Positions 23,334 through 37,358 of a stretch of 64,000 nt of DNA are shown one piece after another. The notes under the pieces are model-generated. The model had not been told where the DNA came from, searched no databases, and worked only from the letters and a program-made list of their open reading frames with translations. The stretch comes from Halococcus agarilyticus (GTDB lineage Archaea > Halobacteriota > Halobacteria > Halobacteriales > Halococcaceae): NCBI RefSeq assembly GCF_000334895.1, contig NZ_BAFM01000008.1:62001-126000 (forward strand). The letters run 5' to 3'. The stretch's first letter is position 1, and every line of letters begins with the position of its first letter. Position numbers and translations under genes: made by a program.

Positions 23334-23460
23334 CGACCCATCCACCTCGGTCGACGCGATACCGCAGGCACCGATGGACGTCGCGCCGGAGCTCGCCCCG
23401 ACGACGGCCGATCGGACTAGGCGCGAGCCACGCGCCGAGGGGAGGTCGACCGATGAGTGA
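23326..23460 (+). CDS. 44-residue ORF bridging nirA and nasA
   Basis: ATG 23326 overlaps the nirA stop region, and its TGA (23458-23460) overlaps the nasA ATG at 23453. The frame fills exactly the gap between the two genes. The peptide is Ala/Pro/Thr-rich and acidic at first, then basic (RTRREPRAEGR). I know no homolog. It could be a translational coupler or a small accessory protein, or simply non-coding linker; the double overlap is the only support. Confidence 0.4.
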   Translation: MTDDPSTSVDAIPQAPMDVAPELAPTTADRTRREPRAEGRSTDE

Positions 23461-25711
23461 GCCGGTGCAGACCACGTGTATGCGGTGTGCGGTCGGCTGC
23501 GGCCACGTCCACGAGGGCGTCGACATCGGCTACGGCATCGCCTCGGTGCAGGGCGACGTCTCCCATCCCGTCAGCAAGGGCCTCGCGTGCCCGCGCGGCA
23601 TCCGCGAGAGCGGCGATCCGGACGGCGAGTGGCTGACACAGCCGCTCGTCAGGAAGGGAGGTGAACTGCTCCCCACGACGTGGGACGTCGCGCTCGGTCG
23701 CGTCGTCAGGGTGTTCGAGGAGATTCTCGACCGCGATCGCGACGGGATCGGGGTGCTCGGCAGCGGCCAGCAGACCAACGAGGCGGCGTACGCGCTCGGC
23801 AAGCTCGCCCGCGGCGGTTTCGGGACCCGCCATTACGACGCCAACACCACCCTCTGCATGGCGAGCGCGGTCGCGGCCTACTACGACGCCTTCGGCAGCG
23901 ACGCACCCCCCTGCACCTACGACGACATCCCCGACGCACGGACCCATCTCGTCTGGGGGGCGAACCCCGCGGTCGCCCATCCAGTCATGTTTCGCTGGAT
24001 CCACGAGAGCGCCCAGGATCCGGACAGTCGGCTCGTGGTGGTCGATCCCGTCGCAACGACGACGGCCGAGGCAGCCGACGCGCACGTCAGTCCAGAGCCG
24101 GGCGGCGACCTCGCGCTGGCGCGGGCCGTCCTCGCGAGGATCGTCGAGCGCGGCCGCGTCGACAGGGAGTTCGTCGATCGGGCGACGACCGGGTTCGACG
24201 ACCTCTGTAAGGATTTGCCGACGCCGACGGCAGCGGCCGCGACCGCCGGCGTTCCCCTCGAAACGGTCGACGCCTTGGTGGAGGCGCTCGCCGATCCGAC
24301 GCTGCTCTACTGGGGAATGGGCGTCAATCAGAGCACGCAGGGAACGGCGACGGCGGGCGCGCTGATCGATTGCTGTCTCGCGACCGGGAACGTGGGCCCC
24401 GGCTCGGGCCCGTTCTCGCTGACCGGTCAGGCGAACTCGATGGGAACCCGAGTGTGTTCCTCGAAGGGAACCTGGCCGGGCCATCGCGACTTCGGCGATC
24501 CCGACGAACGGGCCGTCGTCGCGGACGCATGGGGGGTTCCCGAGGGACGACTGCCCGACGACACCGGTCCCGGCCCGGTCGGCATCGTCGAGGCGATCAA
24601 CGACGGCCCGATCGAGGCGCTCTGGACCGTGGCGACCAACCCGGTCGCGGGGCTGCCCGACGCGACGGCGGCCCGCGAGCGCCTCGACGAGACGTTTCTG
24701 GTGGTCCAGGACGCGTTCCGGAGCGAGACCGTCGAACTGGCGGACGTCGTGCTCCCGGCGGCGACGTGGGGCGAGTCGAGCGGGACGGCGATGAACATGG
24801 AGCGCACCGTCTCGCGGGTCCGCCCCGCGACCGACAGCCCCTCGGGTATCAGAAGCGATCTCGCCATCGTCGCGACGCTCGCGGACCGACTCGTACCGGG
24901 GTTGTTCGACGCTCGCGATCCCGAGGGAATCTTCGCGGAGTTCGCCGCGCTGACCGAGGGGACCGACGCCGACTGCTCGGGGATCACCTACGACCGCCTC
25001 GAACAGGAGGTGGCGGTCCGCTGGCCCGCACCCGATGCGGCGACAGCGGGTGGCTATCGCTACTACGACCCCGACGGTGATCGATCGATCGGGACCGACG
25101 GCGATCCATCGACCGGGGTCGACGACGACTCACGATCCACGACCGACGAGGAGTCCGGGACCGCTAACGGCGGGGCGGCGTGGACGTTCCCGACGCCCTC
25201 TGGCCGGGCGCGTTTCTCGACCGGCTTCGCCGGGAGCGTTCCCGAACCGCCGAGCGAGGCGTACCCGCTGACGCTCACCACCGCGCGCGATCCCGACGGC
25301 TACAACACGGGCGTGCGGACGCGACCCTCGATCGACGAAGCGGATCCCCTCGTCGCGCGCGTCGATCCGGCGACGCTCGCCGATCACGAGGAGTGCGTTC
25401 GCGCGGACGACGAGTCGAAACCGATCACCACCATCGAATCCCGGCGTGCGTCGGTATCGGCGCGCGTCGAACCGGACGACGCCATCCCCGAAGGGATGGT
25501 CTGGCTGCCGATCCACCAGCCGATGACCAACCACCTCACCATCGCGGCGACCGACCCCGACTCGGACGAACCGAACTACAAGCAGTGTGCGGTGCGCCTC
25601 GCCGCCCCCGAGCGCTCGAAGCGCGGGACGGAGACCGGTTCGGAGGGCGCGAGTGCGACCGAACGTGAACGTTCCGAACTCGCCGGTCATCCCGCGGGGG
25701 TGCGTCAGTGA
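23453..25711 (+). CDS. nasA: Assimilatory nitrate reductase, molybdopterin subunit
   Basis: A 752-residue enzyme of the DMSO-reductase superfamily reducing nitrate to nitrite in the cytosol. The N-terminal 4Fe-4S ligands are Cys9, Cys12, Cys16 and Cys46 ([21 protein letters not shown]). Molybdopterin-binding segments include [20 protein letters not shown] (with Cys as the likely Mo ligand region) and [21 protein letters not shown] hydrophilic Asp/Thr/Ser-rich insertion lies at about residues 540-575. No Tat signal is present, in agreement with an assimilatory role. Its stop overlaps the next gene's GTG by four bases. Confidence 0.93.
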
Positions 25712-27027
25712 GCCTCGTCCGGATGACGAAGTGGCGGACGCTGGTGCTCGCCACCGCGGGATTCAACCTCTCCTTTCTGATCTGGTTTTCCTTCGCCCCC
25801 TTCACCGGCCCGATGGCCGCGGAGTTCGGCCTCTCGCTCGCGGAGATCGGGATCCTCGCGAGCGCGGCGATCTGGCTCGCGCCGTTCGGGCGGATCCTGA
25901 CGGGGTGGCTCTCGGACAAGTACGGCGCGCCGACCGTGTTCGCGATCGTGCTCGCGTACGTCGGCGTGTTCTCGATGGCGAGCGCGTTCGCGGAGAGCTA
26001 CGCGGTCTTCTTCGTCGAGCGGTTGATCGTCGCCACCGCGGGGATCACGTTCGTCATCGGCATCCAGCACGTCTCGGAGTGGTTTCCCGAGGAGCAGTTG
26101 GGCACCGCCGAGGGGATCTATGCCGGCATCGGCAACGCCGGGGCCGCGGGCGGCGCGTTGATCCTCCCGCGCGTGTTCGGCACGAACTGGAACGGGCCGC
26201 TGTTCGACACGAACTGGCGGGCGGCCTTCTTCTACACGGGCGTCGTCGCGATCCTGATGGCCGTCGTCTACTACGCGATCGGTGAGGCCGCATCGAGCGA
26301 GCAGCGTCGCCAGACGACCGCCGAGAGCGCGACCCTGAAGCAGTGGGTTCACACGGCGACGCGGTACGGAACGGTCGTGCTCGCGCTCGCGTACGTGATG
26401 AGCTTCGGTCTCGAACTCTCGATGAACGGGTGGCTCGCGACCTACTACCGGGAGGGGTTCGCCACCGACGATCTCGTGCTCGCGAGCACGTTCGCGGCGA
26501 CGTTCTCGCTCGCGGCCGGCCTGTTGCGCCCCATCGGTGGCTACGTCAGCGACGTGCTCGCACGGCGTGAGCGGGACATCCTGCCGTTCTTCCGGGGTCG
26601 CTACCGCGAGCAGTGGACGTTCGTCGCGCTCGTCTTCGTCGTCGTGACGATGATGTTGATGACCCTCGCCGGCCTCTCCGGTGCGGTCACCGTGGCGGTC
26701 GGGGCCGGCTTCCTCGTCGGGACGGCGTGTGCGTTCGCCGAGGGAGCGATCTTCGCCCAGGTGCCGGCGATGTTCCCGAACAGTTCGGGGGCCGTCGCGG
26801 GCGTCGTCGGCGGGATCGGTACCATCGGCGGCATCGTCTACCCCCTGGTGTACTCCTCGTCGCTCTTCGGAACCCTCCACGTCGGCTACGCCGTCGTGGG
26901 GATCTCGATGATCCCCATCGTGCTCCTCAACGCGTGGGTCTACCGCCCCGAGATCGCCCGTCGCGCCCATCTCGACGGCTTCCTCGCTCGAAAGAGCGGT
27001 GTCGACGCGACCGGTAGCGACGACTGA
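25708..27027 (+). CDS. nasB: Nitrate/nitrite transporter (NarK-type MFS)
   Basis: A 439-residue major facilitator protein with about 12 hydrophobic segments. NarK/NasA-type signatures are visible: [19 protein letters not shown] at TM1, [18 protein letters not shown] (loop 2-3), and the nitrate signature regions [17 protein letters not shown] and [15 protein letters not shown]. It imports nitrate for the reductase encoded just upstream. The GTG start overlaps the nasA stop (GTGA), so the two are translationally coupled. Confidence 0.92.
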
Positions 27028-27134: not shown

Positions 27135-27236
27135 CTAGTCCGCACCGTGTCGCGGTGTGTAGCCGCAGTTCTCACACTGTAGCGATCCGTCGACGCGCGC
27201 GATCCGTTCCCTGCAGTTCGGACAGTCGAACTGCAT
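27135..27236 (-). CDS. Zinc-finger microprotein, 33 residues
   Basis: ATG 27236 gives a 33-residue protein with two CxxC knuckles (FDCPNCRERI and LQCENCGYTP), a minimal zinc ribbon. Haloarchaea encode many such one-domain zinc-finger microproteins; some in Haloferax are implicated in swarming or biofilm control. The longer frame upstream has atypical composition and is left out. An AT-rich ATCCAATAAACC stretch lies about 30 bases upstream as a possible promoter. Confidence 0.65.
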   Translation of the reverse strand: MQFDCPNCRERIARVDGSLQCENCGYTPRHGAD

Positions 27237-27560: not shown

Positions 27561-29522
27561 TCAGATGTTCGTCACACGCTGGTACTCGTCGCTGAGCGCG
27601 GCGGCGTCCTCGGGGAGGAGGGCCACCACCAGGTACTCGGCGTACTCTTCGAAGTACTCGACCAGCGCCGCGATCCGATCGGAGTCGAGCGCCTCCAGCG
27701 AGTCGATCACGATGAACGGCAGCGACTCGTGGAGGTCGTGGACGAGGTAGCCCGCGAGCGCAAAGACCAGCCCGGTGACTTCGCGTTCGCTCTCCGAGAG
27801 GTGGGCGATCGAGTCCTCGTAGGTCGCACCCTCGTCGGTGCTCCGGATCACGTGGAGGTCGAACACGCCGCGCTCGACTTTCCGCCGACCTTCCCGTACT
27901 GTCTGCTGGGTGCGCTCGATCCAGATCCGTTCGATGTTCGCGTAATCGAGCACACCGAGGATGGTCTCCATGTGGTCGTTGAACGCCTCGACCGCCTCGG
28001 CCTCCAACTGTTCGATCCGGGTGCGGAGGTCGGCGAGTTCGTCCTGGAGCTCCTCGCGGCGGTCGGTCAGTCGATCGCGTTCGTCGAGATCCTCCTCCAC
28101 GCTCGCGATCTCCTCGCGAACGTCGTCGAGATCGCTTTCGAGCCGGCCGAGTTCGAACTCGAGCTGGTTTGCCTCCTTGTGCCGATCGAGCAGCTCGCTC
28201 TGTTCTTGCCCCTCCAGCTCCTCGACGGCGGCCTCGCGCTCGTCGATCTCGTCCTCCAGAGTGCTGCGCTCGTCGGTGAGCTCTTCGAGGGTCGACTCGC
28301 GCTGGGTGATCTCGCGCTCGACCTCGTCGAGCTTGCGGTCGACGCGCTCGCGTCGGTCGCGATCGCCCCGAAGGTCGTCGCGTCGGTCGGTCAGCTCGTC
28401 GAGTTCGGCGTCGACCTCGTTGCGTTTCGACGACCGGTCGCGACGGAGCTCCCGGAGACTGTCGAGCGTGTCGTCGATCGTGTCGCGCTCGACCTCGCTC
28501 CCGCAGGTCCAGCACACCGTGGTGTCCTCCACCAACTGGTCGGTGAGCGCCTCGCCCTCGGTCTCCGTGCCGGTACTCTCACGGTCCTGAAGTGCGGCGT
28601 GAAGCTCGGGGTTGTCGCCGTCGAGGAGGTCCTCGTTGAACTGGAGGATGCGCTGGAGCTGGTTGATCGTCGACTCCAGGGATTGCTTGTGATCGCGGAG
28701 GCGGTCGATCTCGGCCTCGATCTCGTCGAGATCGCCCGCGGGCGTCTCGGGGAGGTCGGTCATGTTCGCTTCGAGCTCGTCGCGCTCGTCTTCGAGCGCC
28801 CCGATGCTCTCGCGTTCGGTGTCGATCCGGTAGCGAACGTCCTCCAGATCGGAGCGCACGTCCTGGAGATCGTCGAGCGCGTCCTCGAAGGCGTTTTTCT
28901 GTTCTCTGGTGTCGTCGACGCTTTCGTCGGCGTCCTCGATCTCGGCCTCCTTCTCGTCGAGCTCGGCGCGCTTGTCCTCGATCCGGTCCTCGAGGCGTGT
29001 CTTCTCGGTTTCGAGCTCGGGCAGTCGCGAGTCGAGCGATTTCAGCCTGTCGAGCTCGTCGTCAAGGTTGCGTTTCTCGGCCTCCAGCTGTTCGATCTCG
29101 GCGTTGACCGCGGCGGTGTCCACGGGCTGCATGATGACCTCGCGGAGGTCGTCGTCGCGCGCGACCGCCTGGCGGGCCTCGTTGGATTCGAGCAGGAACG
29201 CGAACAGTTCGGCAGCCTCGGTGTCCTCGAGGTAGGGATCGCCGTCGAAGACCACCGTACCGTTCCGGCGTTCGAGCGTGCGAGTGTAGGTCTCGCCGGC
29301 GAGATCGAGCGCGACCTCGCCGTGGTCGGCGTCCCCCTTGAGCGAGACGCGATCGCTCCCGAGCGTGGCCATCAACGCCTGGAGGAGCGACGTTCGGTTG
29401 GTAGCGTTTCGGCCGGTGAGGGAGGTGACGCCGGGCGAAAACGCGATCTCGGTGGTGTCGATGCCGCCGACGTTCTCGACGGTGAGCTCGGCGTGTTCTT
29501 CGGTAGCCCGTGATTGACTCAT
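27561..29522 (-). CDS. Archaea-specific SMC-related protein (Rad50/Sph-like)
   Basis: A 653-residue protein. An N-terminal ATPase half (1-130) is followed by a coiled coil (about 140-330), a zinc-hook-like CWTCG (Cys337/Cys340), a second coiled coil (about 350-510) and a C-terminal ATPase half. The nucleotide motifs are unusual: the P-loop reads GRNATNRT (37-44, Arg for Lys), the signature is LSESE (575), and the Walker B Asp607 is followed by Ser608 where Glu is usual. I recall the same wording in related haloarchaeal Sph/SMC-like proteins. Relatives are often next to rdfA (rod formation); no rdfA is seen here. ATG 29522 starts MSQSRATEEH. Confidence 0.85.
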   Translation of the reverse strand: MSQSRATEEHAELTVENVGGIDTTEIAFSPGVTSLTGRNATNRTSLLQALMATLGSDRVSLKGDADHGEVALDLAGETYTRTLERRNGTVVFDGDPYLEDTEAAELFAFLLESNEARQAVARDDDLREVIMQPVDTAAVNAEIEQLEAEKRNLDDELDRLKSLDSRLPELETEKTRLEDRIEDKRAELDEKEAEIEDADESVDDTREQKNAFEDALDDLQDVRSDLEDVRYRIDTERESIGALEDERDELEANMTDLPETPAGDLDEIEAEIDRLRDHKQSLESTINQLQRILQFNEDLLDGDNPELHAALQDRESTGTETEGEALTDQLVEDTTVCWTCGSEVERDTIDDTLDSLRELRRDRSSKRNEVDAELDELTDRRDDLRGDRDRRERVDRKLDEVEREITQRESTLEELTDERSTLEDEIDEREAAVEELEGQEQSELLDRHKEANQLEFELGRLESDLDDVREEIASVEEDLDERDRLTDRREELQDELADLRTRIEQLEAEAVEAFNDHMETILGVLDYANIERIWIERTQQTVREGRRKVERGVFDLHVIRSTDEGATYEDSIAHLSESEREVTGLVFALAGYLVHDLHESLPFIVIDSLEALDSDRIAALVEYFEEYAEYLVVALLPEDAAALSDEYQRVTNI

Positions 29523-30046: not shown

Positions 30047-30838
30047 ATGTCCGGGAGCAACACGCCGCGGTTGGTGAACGCGACGGAGACGTCGCTCGCC
30101 ATCGTCGAGGCCGTTCGCGATCGCGACGGGGCGACGCTCACCGAGGTCGCCGACGGACTCGACATCGGGTACAGCACCGCCCACAACCACCTCGCGACGC
30201 TCTGTGCGAACAACTGGCTCGTCAAGCACGACGGCGAGTACGACATCGGCCTGAAGTTCCTCTCCTTCGGGGAGTACGCACGGCGTCGAACGCCCCACTA
30301 CGACGTCGCGAGGCGACACATGCACGAGCTGACCGAGCGGACCAACCTCGAAGTCGAGTTCCTCGTCGAGGAGTACGGCCGGCTCATTTCGATCGTGGAC
30401 ATGATCGGCGACGCCGGCGGGTTCGGGCCGCCGGAGGACGGCAAGTGGCTGCGGGTTGGCGAGTACTACTACCTCCACAACACGGCCTCGGGTAAGGCGA
30501 TCCTCGCCGAACTCCCCGACGAGCGGGTCGAGGCGATCCTCGATCAGTGGGGTCTCCCGGCGGAAACCCCGTACTCGGTCACCGACCGCGACGAGCTCGA
30601 CGCCCAGCTCGCGACGATCCGCGAACAGGGGTACGCCGAGACCGAACAGGAGGTCGTCGAGGGGTTCGCCAACGCCGGGACCGCCGTCCAGTACCCCGAC
30701 GGGCGGGTCCTCGGTGGGATCAGCGTGGGCTGGCCGACGTACCTCTACAGCGACGGCGTCGATGCCGAAGTCATCGAGCAGCTGCTCGACACCGCCGCGT
30801 CGATCGAAGAGCGGATCGCTGCCACGTCGTCGGACTGA
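30047..30838 (+). CDS. IclR family transcriptional regulator
   Basis: A 263-residue regulator. The N-terminal winged HTH (TSLAIVEAVRDRDGATLTEV, DIGYSTAHNHLATL) precedes an IclR effector domain (PHYDVARRHMHELTER, NTASGKAILAELPDERV, QEVVEGFANAGTAV). The end of the protein (GRVLGGISVGWPTYLY) is normal length. It sits immediately upstream of, and in the same direction as, the CoA-reductase gene, so it is the best candidate for local control of the amine/C3-acid cluster. ATG 30047 is preceded by an AT-rich element at typical promoter distance. Confidence 0.88.
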   Translation: MSGSNTPRLVNATETSLAIVEAVRDRDGATLTEVADGLDIGYSTAHNHLATLCANNWLVKHDGEYDIGLKFLSFGEYARRRTPHYDVARRHMHELTERTNLEVEFLVEEYGRLISIVDMIGDAGGFGPPEDGKWLRVGEYYYLHNTASGKAILAELPDERVEAILDQWGLPAETPYSVTDRDELDAQLATIREQGYAETEQEVVEGFANAGTAVQYPDGRVLGGISVGWPTYLYSDGVDAEVIEQLLDTAASIEERIAATSSD

Positions 30839-30915
30839 GGACGAACTATCTCCGAGATGTCGGAGCTGCGACGAAAGTGTTTTGTCGGGCCGTTTCGTCG
30901 GCCGACGTGGATACC

Positions 30916-32814
30916 ATGGCAGCCGACGACACCACCATCGGTAGCGCTATCGACGACGAAACCAGGCGTGAGCTCGTCGACACCGACGATCTCCTTCCGA
31001 CCGGTTCGGCGTTCGTCCCGGGCGAAACGCCGATCCCCGACTACCAGTTGGCGTGGGGGATCACGAGCGACGACGAGGGCGACCCGATTCACGGCGAGCC
31101 CACGGCCGACGACGCCGAACGGGAGCTCGTGATCCCGGTCGAGGAGCCGGGGCCCAACGAGGCGCTGCTGTACATGCTCACCTCGGAGGTCAACTACAAC
31201 GACGTCTGGGCGGTCACCGGCGTGCCGGTCTCGACGTTCGCGGGCCACGACCGCGACTGGCACGTCACGGGTTCGGGCGGGCTCGCGCTGGTCGCCGAAA
31301 CCGGGGCCGGCGTCGCGGACGAGGGCCGGATCGCGGTCGGCGACCTCGTCCACGTCTACGCGGGGAAGTTCGACGCGCTCTCGCCGAAGGCCGGCCGGGA
31401 CCCGATGTTCGCCGACTTCCGGATCCAGGGGTACGAGACGCCGGACGGCTCCCACCAGCAGTTCGTGACCGCCCAGGCGACCCAGCTGTTCGAGCCCCCC
31501 TCGACCCTCGACCTCACCGAGGCGGGCAGCTACATCCTCACGATGGGGACCATCTACCGCGCGCTGACGAACACGCTCGACGTGGAGCCGGGGAGTGATC
31601 TCTTCGTCGAGGGGGCCTCGACCGGTACCGGCCGTGACGCCGTCGAGATGGCGGTGAGCCGGGGGCTCGACGTCACGGGGCTCGTTTCGAGCGACGAGCG
31701 CGCCGAGCGCGCAAAGGGGGTCGGAGCCGACGCGGCGATCGACCGCACGCAGGACGCACTCTCCGGAGCCATGCGGATGGTGCCGAACGATCCCGCCGCG
31801 GTCGAGGACTGGGTGGCCGCCGGCGAGCCGCTGCTGGAGGAGTTCCGTGCGAAAAACGACGGCGAGCTCGCCGACTACGCCATCTCCCACGCCGGTCAGG
31901 AGGCGTTCTCCCGATCCTACCAACTCCTCGACGAGGGCGGCCGGCTCACGTTCTACGGCGCGTCGACGGGCTACGAGATGGCGTTCGTTGGCAAGGGCGG
32001 TGCGACGACGCCGGGCGAGATGTACGACCGCTCGGCGCTCCGGCCGGGCGGGGGCGTGCTCGTCTGGTACGGCACCCCCGACGGGATCGAGGGGACCACC
32101 GACGAGGTCGGCGAGGCCGCGATCGAGGCGGCGCTCGATCGGCGCGCACGTGTGGCCGTCGTCACCGAATCGGAGGAACAGGCCGACGCCGTCGAGTCGG
32201 CACACGACGTCGAGGGTGCGGTCAGCCTCGAACACCTGGCGGCCGAGAACGACGCGGTCGCGTTCGAGCCGCTGCCCGAGCTTCCGAAACCATCCGAACC
32301 CGACGCGCTCGCCGCGACGGTCGGCGAGTACACGAACAAGCTGTTCAAACCCGTCGGGATCGCCACGGGCGAGCTCCTCGCCACGCCGAACAATCCCCGT
32401 GGGAACCCGGACGTCGTCTTCGAGCGCGCGGGTCAGAACACGCTCGGGACGTCGACGATGCTCTGTGCGTCGTTCGAGGGCGAGGTGGTGTACGCCGAGG
32501 CGATGGCCGACCGGCGCTACTCGTTTTACGCGCCCCAGGTCTGGATGCGCCAGCGCCGGATCCACATGCCGACGACCGAAATCTTCGGCACGCACATGAA
32601 GAACACCTACGAGGTGCTGAAGATGAACGAGGAGATCGAGCGCGGGGTTTTCGACGTCCCGCGGACCCATCTCGTCGACTGGGACGACGCCCCCGAAGCC
32701 CATCAGGACATGTGGGAGAACAACCACGAGGAGGGATCGTACGTCATCAACCACGCGCTCCCCGAGGACGGGATCGAATCGAAGGACGAGCTCTTCGCGG
32801 CCTGGGACGTCTGA
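30916..32814 (+). CDS. Crotonyl/acrylyl-CoA reductase-like MDR-family enzyme
   Basis: A 632-residue zinc-free medium-chain reductase resembling crotonyl-CoA reductase/carboxylase and the reductase domain of propionyl-CoA synthase. Features: NEALLYMLTSEVNYNDVWAV (GroES-like part), DLFVEGASTGTGRDAVEMAV (nucleotide fold), VTGLVSSDERAERAKGVGAD, and a repeated C-terminal half with LFYAPQ-like sequence (SFYAPQVWMRQRRIHM). It would reduce an enoyl-CoA such as acrylyl-CoA to propionyl-CoA with NADPH. It is longer than the usual 330-450 residues. It is preceded by the IclR gene and followed by a convergent crotonase gene. Confidence 0.78.
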   Translation: MAADDTTIGSAIDDETRRELVDTDDLLPTGSAFVPGETPIPDYQLAWGITSDDEGDPIHGEPTADDAERELVIPVEEPGPNEALLYMLTSEVNYNDVWAVTGVPVSTFAGHDRDWHVTGSGGLALVAETGAGVADEGRIAVGDLVHVYAGKFDALSPKAGRDPMFADFRIQGYETPDGSHQQFVTAQATQLFEPPSTLDLTEAGSYILTMGTIYRALTNTLDVEPGSDLFVEGASTGTGRDAVEMAVSRGLDVTGLVSSDERAERAKGVGADAAIDRTQDALSGAMRMVPNDPAAVEDWVAAGEPLLEEFRAKNDGELADYAISHAGQEAFSRSYQLLDEGGRLTFYGASTGYEMAFVGKGGATTPGEMYDRSALRPGGGVLVWYGTPDGIEGTTDEVGEAAIEAALDRRARVAVVTESEEQADAVESAHDVEGAVSLEHLAAENDAVAFEPLPELPKPSEPDALAATVGEYTNKLFKPVGIATGELLATPNNPRGNPDVVFERAGQNTLGTSTMLCASFEGEVVYAEAMADRRYSFYAPQVWMRQRRIHMPTTEIFGTHMKNTYEVLKMNEEIERGVFDVPRTHLVDWDDAPEAHQDMWENNHEEGSYVINHALPEDGIESKDELFAAWDV

Positions 32815-32896
32815 GAACGCGCGGTTCGTTCGGCTTTCTCGCTCCGGTCCACTCGCTTCGCGATCCGGACGAATCACCGAACGGTCGCGGTGCTGC

Positions 32897-33703
32897 TCAG
32901 TTCTTTTCGGCGGTTCGCATCCAGTCGATGGCGGCCGAGACGCCCTCCTCGTCGGCGATCTCGTGGAACTCCTGGGCGGTCTCGGTTTCGGCGGAGGCCG
33001 CGTAGAGGTACTTCGCGACGTTCGCGGCGGAGTTCGACCGGTAGCCCTGGGTCTCCTGGACGTCGTTGAGGGTGTCCTTCAGCAGCTTCGTGATCGCGCT
33101 CGGGACGCGCTTCATGTGATCGACCTCGTCCATCACCGTGTCCATGAGTTCCTCCTCGGACACGACGCGGTTGACGATCCCCATCCGCTCGGCCTCCGTG
33201 GCGTCGACGTGCTTGCCCGTGTAGAACAGCTCGCGCGCGTGTTTCAGCGATCCCGTCACGAACGGCAGCACCATCGCCGGCGGGAGCTCGCCCATCCGCA
33301 TGTCGGGGAAGCCGAACTCCGAGCGCTCGGTGGCGAACGTGAGGTCACAGACCAGCGCGAGGTTGCAGCCGCCGGCGAGGGCGTAGCCGTCGACGGCGGC
33401 GATCACGGGAATGGATAGATTGTAGATCGCGTCGAGATGGGTGTACTCCGACTCGATGATCGTGTCCATCGACGGCTCCTCGTCGGCCCCGAAGTCGTAG
33501 CCCGACGAGAACGCGCGGCCGTTGCCCGTCAGCACGACCGCGCGCACGTCGGCCGCGTCCTCCGCGGCCGCGAGCGCGGCTTCGAGTTCGTCGAGGAGCC
33601 CCGTACTCAGTGCGTTGAGCGTGTCGGGGTCGTCGAGGGTGACGATACGCGCGCCGTTCTCGGTTCGCACGTCGAGGTGATCGTAGTCGCTCATCGGTTG
33701 CAT
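32897..33703 (-). CDS. Enoyl-CoA hydratase/isomerase family protein
   Basis: A 268-residue crotonase-fold protein. Oxyanion-hole segments are RAFSSGYDFGAD and VDGYALAGGCNLALVCD. The two Glu of hydratases (rat Glu144 and Glu164) correspond here to Asn (GGCNLAL) and Asp (FPDMRMGE), so classical hydration of enoyl-CoA is doubtful; isomerase, lyase or other CoA chemistry is possible. ATG 33703 is preferred to ATG 33694 because a TATA box centred at 33729 would place the transcript start there. It probably acts with the reductase and acyl-CoA synthetase nearby. Confidence 0.82.
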   Translation of the reverse strand: MQPMSDYDHLDVRTENGARIVTLDDPDTLNALSTGLLDELEAALAAAEDAADVRAVVLTGNGRAFSSGYDFGADEEPSMDTIIESEYTHLDAIYNLSIPVIAAVDGYALAGGCNLALVCDLTFATERSEFGFPDMRMGELPPAMVLPFVTGSLKHARELFYTGKHVDATEAERMGIVNRVVSEEELMDTVMDEVDHMKRVPSAITKLLKDTLNDVQETQGYRSNSAANVAKYLYAASAETETAQEFHEIADEEGVSAAIDWMRTAEKN

Positions 33704-33725
33704 CTCCGTCTCGCTCGCAGTCGGG

Positions 33726-33732
33726 CTTATAC
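33726..33732 (-). promoter_or_regulatory. TATA box of the crotonase gene
   Basis: On the minus strand GTATAAG is centred about 26 bases before ATG 33703. This spacing favours leaderless initiation at the upstream of two nearby ATGs. Confidence 0.5.
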
Positions 33733-33770
33733 CCGTCGGTACCTGTCAGCCAGGAGTGGTTCCCACCCAG

Positions 33771-35000
33771 TCAGCTCCGCTGCGCCTGCCACGACGCCAT
33801 CGGGGCGAAGTCGAAGTCGGTGTCACGGGTGTCGAACCGATCGAGCCGGTGGGGGTCGCGCGGGAAGGGACACGCCTCGTCCGTGAGGAACGATCTGACG
33901 GCGGCACCGATGCTCTTGGTCGCCATCACCCCGGCCCCGTGAAAGCCCGCAGCGACCGCCAGGCCGTCGGGCCCCTCGTCGGGCGCGTCGACGATCGGCC
34001 TGGCGTCCGGCGTCGTGCAGTCGGCCATCGGACAGACTTCCCAGCGAACGACGTCGTCCGCGGGGTCGACGTGCGCGAGCAGTTCCGGAAGGTCCTCGTT
34101 CAGCAACCGTTCTAGCCGGGGACCGATCTGCTCGTGATCCTCGCCGCGAACACCCGAGGGCTCCGCCTCCTGCGCCCCCTCCGCACCGTTGCGGGTGCTG
34201 CTGTGGGGCCCTCGATCGAGCGCCTCGTCGCCGTAGTAGTGTTCGATACCGACGATCAGGTGATCGTCCCGCGTGGGTCGCCAGTAGCATTGCTCCTGCC
34301 AGTCGCCACCCATTGGGTACTCGTCCGGCAGTTCGACGTCGAGATAGGCGACGTTCCAGACGAACTTCCTGATGGGGAGCGGGAGCACGTCCGCGAGCAG
34401 GGGTCGCGTTCCCGATCCCGCCGCGACGACGACCGACTCGGCGTCGACCCGTTGGTACTCCGTCTCGACGCCCACTGCGGCTCCGTTCTCGACGCACACC
34501 GACTCGACCAGCGTGTCCGGCCGAAACTCGACGCCACGTTCCACGCACAGGCGCTGCAGCGTCGACAGCCACTCGTCGATGTCGAAGTAGCCGGTGTACT
34601 CGTCCCAGACGAGCACCTTCTCGTACGGCGAGTCGTCGTCGAACGTCTCGTTCCACCGATCGTACTCGCCCGGCTCGCGCAGCGTGACCCACTCCCGCTC
34701 GGCGACCGTCTCGGCCCGCTCGATTTCGCCGGTGCGGACGCCCCGGACGAACTCGCGCTCCGTGTACTCGAAGACGCCCGTTCCGTCCATCTCCTCGAAG
34801 AACTCGACGGCGTGACGGGCCCACTCCGGCTGCTCGGGGTAGTCGACGGGCGTCGTGATGACGCCGGAGGCGCGGCTCGACGTCCCGTTGCCGATACGAT
34901 CGCCGTCGACCACCAGCACGTCGTGATCGGGTGCCAAGTGCCACGCGGAAGACAGACCCGCGACACCGGATCCGACGATGACGACATCGAACTCGGACAT
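33771..35000 (-). CDS. FAD-dependent amine/amino acid oxidoreductase (DAO family) 1
   Basis: A 409-residue flavoprotein of the D-amino acid oxidase fold. The dinucleotide motif FDVVIVGSGVAGLSSAW starts at residue 3, followed by SRASGVITTPVDYPEQPEW and a C-terminal FAD motif (PDGLAVAAGFHGAGVMATKS). A polar insertion of about 30 residues (around SSTRNGAEGAQEAE) interrupts the substrate domain. Such enzymes oxidise secondary or primary amines or gamma-glutamylated amines; PuuB belongs to the same fold. ATG 35000 starts MSEFDVV. It is divergent from the acyl-CoA synthetase gene and paralogous to the enzyme at 40386-41552. Confidence 0.85.
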   Translation of the reverse strand: MSEFDVVIVGSGVAGLSSAWHLAPDHDVLVVDGDRIGNGTSSRASGVITTPVDYPEQPEWARHAVEFFEEMDGTGVFEYTEREFVRGVRTGEIERAETVAEREWVTLREPGEYDRWNETFDDDSPYEKVLVWDEYTGYFDIDEWLSTLQRLCVERGVEFRPDTLVESVCVENGAAVGVETEYQRVDAESVVVAAGSGTRPLLADVLPLPIRKFVWNVAYLDVELPDEYPMGGDWQEQCYWRPTRDDHLIVGIEHYYGDEALDRGPHSSTRNGAEGAQEAEPSGVRGEDHEQIGPRLERLLNEDLPELLAHVDPADDVVRWEVCPMADCTTPDARPIVDAPDEGPDGLAVAAGFHGAGVMATKSIGAAVRSFLTDEACPFPRDPHRLDRFDTRDTDFDFAPMASWQAQRS

Positions 35001-35243
35001 TGCGGTTGGTACGCACACCCGCACTCACTAAACGCTATCGGGCACGGCAAACGGCAGGACGGCCGGTCTCGCCAGCGAAACGCAGTTCTACCGAAGGAAT
35101 CGACGAGGAACAGCCGATTGTAAGCAGGATCGTCGTGGCGACCGCTCGTTTCGGGCTCGCCGTCACTCGCTGCGGCCGCAGGCGCTGACACGCCGATCCT
35201 GACGACCGAAAGCTACTAACGAGCGGTGTGCGAACCTCCACCG

Positions 35244-37358
35244 ATGTCCGAGCAGCTACAGCGGCTCTTCAACCCGGAGTCCGTCGCGGTCGTCGGTGCG
35301 TCGACGAACCCCGAAAAGCGCGGCTACCGGACGATCGAGGACCTCGACGAGTGGGGGTACGATGGCGAGGTCTACCCCGTGAACCCACGGTACGACGAGA
35401 TCCGCGGCCACGAGACCTACGCGTCGGTCGCCGACGTTCCTGGGGGCGTTGACCTCGTGTTCGTCGCCATCCCCGCCCCGTACGTCCCCAAAGTCATCCG
35501 CGAGAGCGGCGCGGCGGGCGCGGCTGGCGCGGTCGTCAACACCGCCGGGTTCGACGAGGTTGGCGAGGACGACCTCGCCGCCGATCTCGCGGCGGCGGCG
35601 CGGGAAGCGGGCGTCCGGATCGTGGGCCCGAACATCCAGGGGATCGACGCGGTCCACCAGCAGCTCCACCTCCTCGGGAGCTATCGGACGACGCCCGGCG
35701 GGCTCGGGCTGCTGACCCAGAGCGGCAACATGGGCGTCGATCTGTCCGTCGACGCCCAGCACCGCGGCAACGTCGGCTTCAGCTACAACATCGGTGTGGG
35801 CAACGAGACCGACCTCCAGTTCGGCGAGTACCTCGACTTCCTCGCGACCGACGAGAACACCGACGGCGTGACGATCTACACCGAGGGGATGGAGGACGGC
35901 CGATCGTTTCTCGAAACTGCCCAGCGCGTCTCGTCGGAGACCCCCATCGTCGCGTTCAAGGCGGGCCAGACGTCGGCGGGAAAGGAGTCCGCGGCGTCAC
36001 ACAGCGCGTCGCTCGCGGGCGACATCGACGTGGTCGACGCGGCGTATCGCCAGGCAGGCGTGACCCGAGTCGAGAGCCTCGATCGCGTGGTCCCCGTGGC
36101 GTCGGCGCTCACTCAGTCGCCGACCCCCGACGGCCCGAACGTCGCGGTGCTCACCGACGGCGGCGGTCACGGTACGGTCGCATCGGACGTGCTCACCGAA
36201 GCGGGCCTCACACTCCCGGAGCTCACCAAGGAGACTCGGGCCGAGCTGGCGGAGCTGTTCCCCATCTCACCGAACCTCGCCAATCCCGTGGACGTGATGG
36301 GGCAGTCCTCACACATCGACATGTGGGCGGCGGCCCCCGAGATCATCCTCGACGACCCGAACGTCGACATGCTGTTGATAACCGGCGCGTACGGTGGCTA
36401 CGAGGAACACTGGACCGGCCACGAGACCGAAGCCGAACCGGACGAGGAGCCGCGTGCGGCCGATCGCATCGTGAACGCCAGAGACGAGACCGGAAAGCCG
36501 GTCGTGATCCACAGCCTCTTCGCCGAGCTGGGGTCGGCAGCGTTCCGACGACTCCGCGCTGGCGGCGTCCCGGTCCACGATGCCGTCACCGACGCGGCGG
36601 CGTGTCTCGACGCGCTCGCGGCGTACGGACGGCACTGCCGCCACGCCGACGAGAAGTCCGACTTCGCTCTCCCCGCGCGCGACGAGAACCGGAGCCGTAT
36701 CGTCGACGGCTCGCGGCTCGCCGAACACGACGCGAAACGCCTTCTCGCGGAGTACGGTGCGCCGGTCGCGCCGTTCGAACTGGCCGCGAATCCCGAGGAG
36801 GCAGTCGACGCCGCCGCGGGGTTCGACGGCCCGGTCGCCATGAAGATCGCCTCGTCCGACATCGTTCACAAGACCGAGGCCGGCGGCGTGGAGCTCGACA
36901 TCGCCAGCGAGGACGCGATCCGAGCGGCGTTCGAGGCGATCATGGACAGCGTCGCGGCGTACGACCCGTCGGCCGAAATCGACGGCGTCCTGGTCTCGCC
37001 GATGGTCGACGACGGCGTCGAGCTGATCGTCGGCGTCGTCGAGGACCCGGAGGTCGGCCCGGTCGTGACCTGCGGCATCGGCGGCGTGCTCGTCGAGGCC
37101 ATCGACGACGTGGCGTTCCGCGCGCTCCCGCTCACGGCGTACGACGCCCGAGAGATGATCGACGAGATCGAGGCCCAAGCCCTCCTCGATGGCCCGCGCG
37201 ACCGGCCGGCGGTCGACCGCGACGCGCTCGCCGACCTTCTGTGTACTGTCTCCGACCTCGTGATCGAGAACCCCGCGATCGACGAACTCGACCTCAACCC
37301 CGTCGTCGCCACCGACGACGGACTCTCGATTCTGGATGCAGCAGTCGAACTCGACTGA
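35244..37358 (+). CDS. Acyl-CoA synthetase, ADP-forming (fused alpha and beta)
   Basis: A 704-residue fused NDP-forming acyl-CoA synthetase. The CoA-binding Rossmann part is SVAVVGASTNPEKRGYRT, and the succinyl-CoA-synthetase-like part carries the phosphohistidine His253 (SAASHSASLAGD). The C-terminal ATP-grasp half is VAMKIASSDIVHKTEAGGVEL and VTCGIGGVLVEAIDD. It interconverts acyl-CoA + ADP + Pi and acid + ATP + CoA. In this cluster a C3 or C4 acid (for example 3-hydroxypropionate, GABA-derived acid or acetate) is plausible. ATG 35244 (MSEQLQRLFNPESV) is the family start. Confidence 0.9.
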   Translation: MSEQLQRLFNPESVAVVGASTNPEKRGYRTIEDLDEWGYDGEVYPVNPRYDEIRGHETYASVADVPGGVDLVFVAIPAPYVPKVIRESGAAGAAGAVVNTAGFDEVGEDDLAADLAAAAREAGVRIVGPNIQGIDAVHQQLHLLGSYRTTPGGLGLLTQSGNMGVDLSVDAQHRGNVGFSYNIGVGNETDLQFGEYLDFLATDENTDGVTIYTEGMEDGRSFLETAQRVSSETPIVAFKAGQTSAGKESAASHSASLAGDIDVVDAAYRQAGVTRVESLDRVVPVASALTQSPTPDGPNVAVLTDGGGHGTVASDVLTEAGLTLPELTKETRAELAELFPISPNLANPVDVMGQSSHIDMWAAAPEIILDDPNVDMLLITGAYGGYEEHWTGHETEAEPDEEPRAADRIVNARDETGKPVVIHSLFAELGSAAFRRLRAGGVPVHDAVTDAAACLDALAAYGRHCRHADEKSDFALPARDENRSRIVDGSRLAEHDAKRLLAEYGAPVAPFELAANPEEAVDAAAGFDGPVAMKIASSDIVHKTEAGGVELDIASEDAIRAAFEAIMDSVAAYDPSAEIDGVLVSPMVDDGVELIVGVVEDPEVGPVVTCGIGGVLVEAIDDVAFRALPLTAYDAREMIDEIEAQALLDGPRDRPAVDRDALADLLCTVSDLVIENPAIDELDLNPVVATDDGLSILDAAVELD

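Follow-up and report, generated by a model that had tools for sequence, protein, structure and literature searches.

Introduction

Archaea-specific SMC-related proteins (ASRPs) are treated as SMC ATPases in Yoshinaga 2022 (PMC9389158), where their Walker A and Walker B motifs are stated to be present. For the Sph proteins, the haloarchaeal members of the family, the sections of Schiller 2024 covered here (PMC10869688) report that 42 of 50 SMC-like genes adjoin rdfA, and that deletion of either sph3 or rdfA leaves H. volcanii cells disk-only and non-motile, with no rods. The corresponding sections of PMC11276520 describe reduced survival in a gene-conversion assay on deletion of sph1 through sph4, an absence of rods in sph3 deletion mutants, a mostly rod-shaped delta-sph2 strain, and an inability to delete sph2 and sph4 together. 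The portion of PMC13286277 covered reports the opposite of PMC10869688 and PMC11276520, namely that Sph3 promotes plates and that its deletion leads to rods.

In the portions searched of PMC9389158, PMC10869688, PMC11276520, PMC9764264, PMC10769869, PMC13286277 and PMC5373644, we found no mention of ASRP or Sph proteins that lack the Walker A Lys and the catalytic Glu; the original coalescin and Sph papers lie outside this coverage, and an earlier report is possible. Here we describe such a protein from Halococcus agarilyticus, encoded in a stretch of 64,000 nucleotides of contig C8 (hereafter the window, to whose numbering the feature coordinates refer). The family is already known, and the window protein is a typical member of what is apparently its commonest haloarchaeal type.

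Family assignment and predicted fold

The gene lies on the minus strand of the window (27561..29522), with an ATG at 29522 following the sequence GGGAGGA and a stop at 27561, and encodes a protein of 653 amino acids (P0001). The protein matches model NF045487 (archaea-specific SMC-related protein) with 715.1 bits, against a cut-off of 300, over profile positions 1-593 of 593. It falls short of the cut-offs for Rad50 (75.1 bits for the best NCBIfam Rad50 model, against 700) and for canonical SMC (42.3 bits for SMC_prok_B, against 567.35). On these scores we assign it to the ASRP/Sph family, and by the residues described below to the Arg-type within that family. NF045487 finds matches above its cut-off in 253 of 292 genomes of the class. 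The host genome encodes two ASRPs, the window gene on C8 and a Sph1-type gene on C10. The closest named relative found for the window protein, at 70.7% identity, is encoded on a Halococcus dombrowskii plasmid.

An AlphaFold2 model of the window protein, made from 50 sequences and with a mean pLDDT of 87.1, predicts an SMC/Rad50-type head and a coiled coil. The ascending arm, residues 137-300 (28623..29114, minus strand), is made up of predicted helices 137-199, 206-256 and 262-300, and the descending arm, residues 346-525 (27948..28487, minus strand), of predicted helices 346-437, 442-480 and 482-525. Between the arms is the zinc-hook motif CWTC, residues 337-340 (28503..28514, minus strand), both Cys residues of which occur in all 147 aligned ASRPs. 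Structure comparison pairs the model with the Smc head 5xns (Z 22.8, 322 residues aligned, 4.2 A) and with Rad50 5da9 (Z 22.5, 314 residues aligned, 4.6 A). A search of PDB sequences with the single window protein gave seven weak matches, none of them named SMC or Rad50.

An ATPase site without the usual Lys and Glu

The preliminary description of this locus, made from the DNA letters and their translation, had reported a P-loop GRNATNRT without Lys, a Walker B motif IDSLEALD with Ser in place of Glu, a CxxC hook and a signature-like LSESE; all of these were present when the sequence at 27561-29522 was read again. The degenerate Walker A occupies residues 37-44 (29391..29414, minus strand), and in alignments to Rad50 its Arg43 (29394-29396) takes the usual position of the Lys. 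The altered signature, LSESER at residues 575-580 (27783..27800, minus strand), in which Ser578 replaces the usual second Gly, was placed from the sequence together with a family-profile alignment to Rad50 structure 3qku. The same alignment places the degenerate Walker B and D-loop, FIVIDSLEALD, at residues 603-613 (27684..27716, minus strand), where Asp607 is kept, Glu610 is conserved, and Ser608 (27699-27701) stands at the usual position of the catalytic Glu. The window protein is further unlike canonical SMC proteins in that Asn42 replaces the last Gly of the P-loop and residues 634-636, where the switch His is expected, read ALL.

The register of these motifs rests on two comparisons. A profile comparison with Rad50 from the same genome sets Arg43 opposite the Walker A Lys, and CWTC opposite the Rad50 hook CPTC, and stops near residue 498, before Walker B. 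The family profile aligned to the solved Rad50 3qku (E 1.9e-10 over the whole sequence, with E values of 0.014 and 0.0002 for two head stretches) sets GrNatnrtS opposite GQNGSGKSS and D607-S608 opposite D-E. The preliminary description had allowed that an alignment might put a different Lys or Glu at the active site; neither comparison does so, and the alignments to Rad50 rule out a misplaced motif as the cause of the missing residues. The SMC and Rad50 proteins of the same genome, taken as controls, are canonical (GPNGSGKS, MSGGEK and LDEIDAFLD for SMC; GENGAGKS, LSGGEK and LDEPTANLD for Rad50). Three marks of a functional SMC-superfamily ATPase, the Walker A Lys, the catalytic Glu and an LSGG signature, are replaced in the window protein by Arg43, Ser608 and LSESE. 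The Walker A and Walker B motifs expected at the two ends of an ASRP can be placed, but without the Lys and the Glu, as in 89 of the 147 aligned ASRPs.

Variation of the site across the family

A first set of 113 ASRPs, mainly best profile matches, comprised 92 proteins of the Sph2-4-like clade, 16 of the Sph1-type and five from outside the haloarchaea. Arg43 and Ser608, whose conservation the preliminary description had proposed as a check, each occur in 89 of these 92 clade members, which rules out a chance oddity of the window protein; the other three have Lys with Ala. Proteins with a Lys-type P-loop were then sought deliberately: the Lys version of a P-loop DNA pattern occurs in 37 of 391 haloarchaeal genomes, from which 34 loci were added, the other three being in the set already. 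One SMC (L003), three Rad50-like proteins (L056, L057, L088) and rows with identical C-terminal ends were left out before counting. Because Lys-type loci were sought by pattern, proportions within the resulting 147 non-redundant ASRPs are not frequencies.

The pairs of residues at positions 43 and 608 in these 147 are Arg/Ser in 89, Lys/Ala in 30, Lys/Gly in 10, Lys/Ser in eight, Lys/Arg in four, Lys/Asn in three, Lys/Glu in two and Lys/Asp in one. Arg43 has no partner other than Ser608 (89 of 89). Glu608 is absent from all 142 haloarchaeal ASRPs, including the 53 that have Lys43, and present in two of the five non-haloarchaeal ones. To judge from this alignment, lacking the Glu characterizes the haloarchaeal branch and not just the window protein, and loss of the Lys is the mark of one type inside it (89 of 142). 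The Arg version of the P-loop DNA pattern (NA[S/T][N/H]R[S/T]S...) occurs in 323 of the 391 genomes, a figure that is approximate because the pattern accepts some other codons too (AGY Ser, for example), and in 78 of 86 genera; a reversed control pattern hit three genomes. Full-length Sph1-type matches, at E 1.6e-94 or better, were found in 14 of 78 genomes.

Neighbouring positions vary by type. Asn42 (His in four proteins) and Ser578 are common to the Arg/Ser, Lys/Ala and Lys/Ser types; the Sph1-type keeps Gly at both 42 and 578, and the five non-haloarchaeal ASRPs combine Gly42 with Ser578. Ser578 alone is therefore no mark of lost catalysis, since it occurs in all five of these, two of which have Glu608. 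Every one of the 119 Arg/Ser or Lys/Ala proteins has Glu at position 610, where the two non-haloarchaeal ASRPs with Glu608 have Thr. Among the 89 Arg-type proteins, positions 37, 39-41, 45, 575-579, 607, 610 and 613 are identical throughout; columns 43 and 608 are uninformative here because they define the set. Seven loci (L223, L228, L233, L234, L235, L247, L248) encode a shorter ASRP type, in frames of 610-632 amino acids, with an NA[S/T]NK P-loop, an LAESE signature, a Walker B that reads DS and a His at 636; these form a separate clade (support 100).

Phylogeny and selection

A tree of 101 ASRP sequences was built after removal of the active-site columns, with one outgroup row that forms a long branch. 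The Sph1-type forms a single clade (11 rows, support 100). A single group of 64 (support 97) takes in 56 of the 58 Arg/Ser rows and also encloses a Lys/Ala clade of eight (support 100). Outside this group lie a second Lys/Ala clade of 16 (support 99), a Lys/Ser clade of seven (support 100) and the Arg/Ser rows L078 and L081, in a basal order that is unsettled. Within the large Arg/Ser group, Lys seems to have been regained once, with Ala rather than Glu at 608. Because residue 43 changes only twice (sign test p 0.5), the pairing of 43 with 608 is without statistical support, and we do not claim statistical coupling.

Purifying selection acts on the gene. In comparison with the G044 copy, which is 90% identical, dN/dS is 0.104 overall, and 0.102, 0.103 and 0.088 for the N-terminal head, the coil plus hook, and the C-terminal head, respectively. 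Against more distant copies it is higher yet well below 1 (0.123 to G208, where dS is saturated, and 0.295 to G255). Mean column identity among the 89 Arg-type proteins is 0.74 and 0.75 for the two parts of the head and 0.54 and 0.55 for the arms. The remaining pocket being invariant and the gene being under purifying selection, the degenerate site is fixed rather than decaying.

RdfA and genomic surroundings

Two genes of the genome match the Pfam RdfA model (PF21811), one on C10 beside the Sph1-type ASRP and one at C2:79132-79713, in a 19 kb stretch that holds no ASRP. The preliminary description had stated that the window gene lies apart from any rdfA gene. This holds, and the separation is not a contig-edge artefact, C8 having 157,917 bases with the gene near 90,000 and C2 having 289,782 bases with the gene near 79,000; what has to be added is that a likely cognate rdfA exists on another contig and that relatives keep the pair adjacent. 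In an RdfA tree, the C2 gene belongs to a group of six rows (99/99) with the RdfA proteins encoded directly beside the orthologue of the window protein in the same-genus genome G208 and in Halococcus dombrowskii, along with those of G044, G249 and G255, which have no ASRP alongside. The ASRP tree contains the matching group, minus G249, which had been thinned out. From these groups we conclude that certain members of the genus have separated the pair, and that the probable cognate RdfA of the window protein is encoded elsewhere in the genome.

Across the haloarchaea, RdfA is found in the stretch around the ASRP gene at 122 of 142 loci, with flanks of unequal length (1.5 kb in most cases, and in some truncated where the contig ends). 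The RdfA tree tracks the active-site type of the neighbouring ASRP, needing four changes of type, against a mean of 22.7 for shuffled labels and with none of 200 shuffles as low, in a test on 84 of 105 rows matched by locus id, where RdfA next to the Lys/Ser type was left out and near-copies help labels to cluster. RdfA and ASRP are, on the evidence of these trees, co-inherited, which does not of itself prove contact. A confident structural model of one RdfA protein (L141:9115-9759, pLDDT 90.9) shows a helical core, a long helix and a C-terminal part in which conserved cysteines occur. A Foldseek search with this model for likeness to known SMC partners (kleisin or kite) returned nothing with an E value of 0.001 or lower, and among solved structures Z reached at most 4.8.

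Downstream of the window gene, a 33-codon frame on the minus strand (27135-27236) has the appearance of a small zinc ribbon, its two CxxC pairs lying in MQFDCPNC...CENCGY..., and possibly encodes a small zinc-finger protein; the longer frame around it had no Pfam match. Farther along on the same side, the plus strand (23453-27027) encodes NasA, an assimilatory nitrate reductase of the haloarchaeal kind (1195 bits), together with an MFS transporter resembling NarK. Window positions 30047-37358 encode an IclR-type regulator, a crotonyl-CoA carboxylase/reductase-like protein, an enoyl-CoA hydratase and a protein resembling ADP-forming acyl-CoA ligases. None of them reaches the curated cut-off of its nearest model; together they perhaps constitute a CoA-ester pathway. 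Among nine other window genes tested for synteny, the IclR regulator alone had matches (28-37% identity), in three of five stretches around orthologues.

Discussion

The reading we favour, at a probability of about 0.65, is that Arg-type Sph proteins, which combine a head of the SMC/Rad50 kind with a pair of coiled-coil arms and a zinc hook, do not hydrolyse ATP and serve as an RdfA-linked scaffold in cell shape and gene conversion. On this proposal, the head would not hydrolyse ATP, the protein would dimerize through its zinc hook, and Sph and RdfA, as physical partners, would together build a bracket or filament-like scaffold that acts in cell-shape control and gene conversion. The preliminary description had left a choice between hydrolysis by other residues and a structural relative of SMC proteins that does not hydrolyse ATP; the sequences speak for the latter but cannot settle the choice. 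Retention of Thr44, Asp607 and Asp613 points to a pocket that still binds something, and a binding-only clamp, static or passively released, is possible because the Mg-ligand positions Thr44 and Asp607 are retained. More tentatively, and at less than even odds, a haloarchaeal branch of SMC proteins may have given up ATP hydrolysis to become a cytoskeleton-like scaffold with RdfA, in which the pocket is strictly selected as a lock or sensor and changes at 43 go hand in hand with changes at 608 (Arg paired with Ser, Lys with Ala).

The invariance of Glu610 in Arg/Ser and Lys/Ala proteins, the Thr found at this position in the two non-haloarchaeal ASRPs with Glu608, and the retention of Asp607 and Thr44 would all fit a head that does hydrolyse ATP, with Arg43 holding the phosphates and Glu610, two residues past Ser608, acting as the base. 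We regard this, the main rival reading, as unlikely: seven Lys/Ser and 16 Sph1-type proteins have Glu neither at 608 nor at 610, and 610 is the site of a conserved non-catalytic Asp in canonical SMC proteins (DEVDAALD). Still less probable is a mixed dimer in which a partner supplies the missing residues, an arrangement with precedent in ABC transporters that have one degenerate site. The Sph1-type ASRP on C10 has the Walker A Lys and the signature Gly (GTNWGGKS, LSEGE), but it too is without the catalytic Glu (VDGVSSL), and a mixed pair would therefore still have none. Moreover, six of nine same-genus or same-family genomes (G156, G208, G235, G249, G252, G255) have Arg-type copies only; of the other three, G044 and G124 carry a Sph1-type copy as well, and the search threshold leaves G070 without any ASRP. 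A partner from outside the family, an SMC or a Rad50 for example, is conceivable.

Simple decay of the gene, the site having been lost by drift, has nothing in its favour beyond the missing residues themselves. Given a dN/dS of 0.104, a frame open over the full profile and residues that recur in 89 of 92 clade relatives, we reject a pseudogene as having negligible probability. One special case of the favoured non-hydrolysing reading, included in its probability rather than adding to it, is that ATP is bound unsplit and that binding closes the head, making the protein a sensor or lock instead of a passive scaffold. The pocket is conserved as much as any part of the protein, beyond what a passive scaffold would appear to need, and NBD1 of CFTR offers an example of an E-to-S site that binds ATP but does not split it. 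Replacement of the P-loop Lys by Arg usually weakens nucleotide binding or turnover, however, and we consider this special case possible but rather doubtful.

From their Haloferax relatives we infer that the Sph proteins of H. volcanii probably carry the same residues: L187, chromosomally encoded in one species, and L191, from an H. mediterranei plasmid, are both Arg/Ser. L192, beside rdfA on an H. lucentense plasmid, is of the Sph1-type, with Lys/Arg. If the heads cannot split ATP, loop-extrusion and ATP-cycling models would not apply to these proteins, and the scaffold model with RdfA would be the first to test. Residues 43, 608 and 610 make the question addressable by point mutants.

Among known systems, the window protein is closest to the ASRP and haloarchaeal Sph proteins, which it resembles in profile, head, coil and zinc hook; its same-genus relatives adjoin rdfA, whereas the window gene has no rdfA neighbour. 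Coalescin ClsN of Sulfolobus is assigned to the ASRP family, with a zinc hook, in the part of PMC9389158 covered. The likeness to Rad50 lies in the head fold and the aligned zinc hook; the difference is that GENGAGKS, LSGGEK and LDEP are intact in the host genome's own Rad50. The head fold is likewise shared with canonical SMC, but the window protein has 653 residues, a zinc hook and a degenerate site, against 1194 residues for the SMC of the same genome. The nearest published parallel that we found is SMCL-1 of Caenorhabditis, which in the sections covered of PMC5373644 is described as lacking the catalytic Glu, having an imperfect signature and being predicted not to hydrolyse ATP. Unlike the window protein, SMCL-1 keeps its Walker A motif, has no coil or hinge, and is reported in those sections from Caenorhabditis only (PMC5373644).
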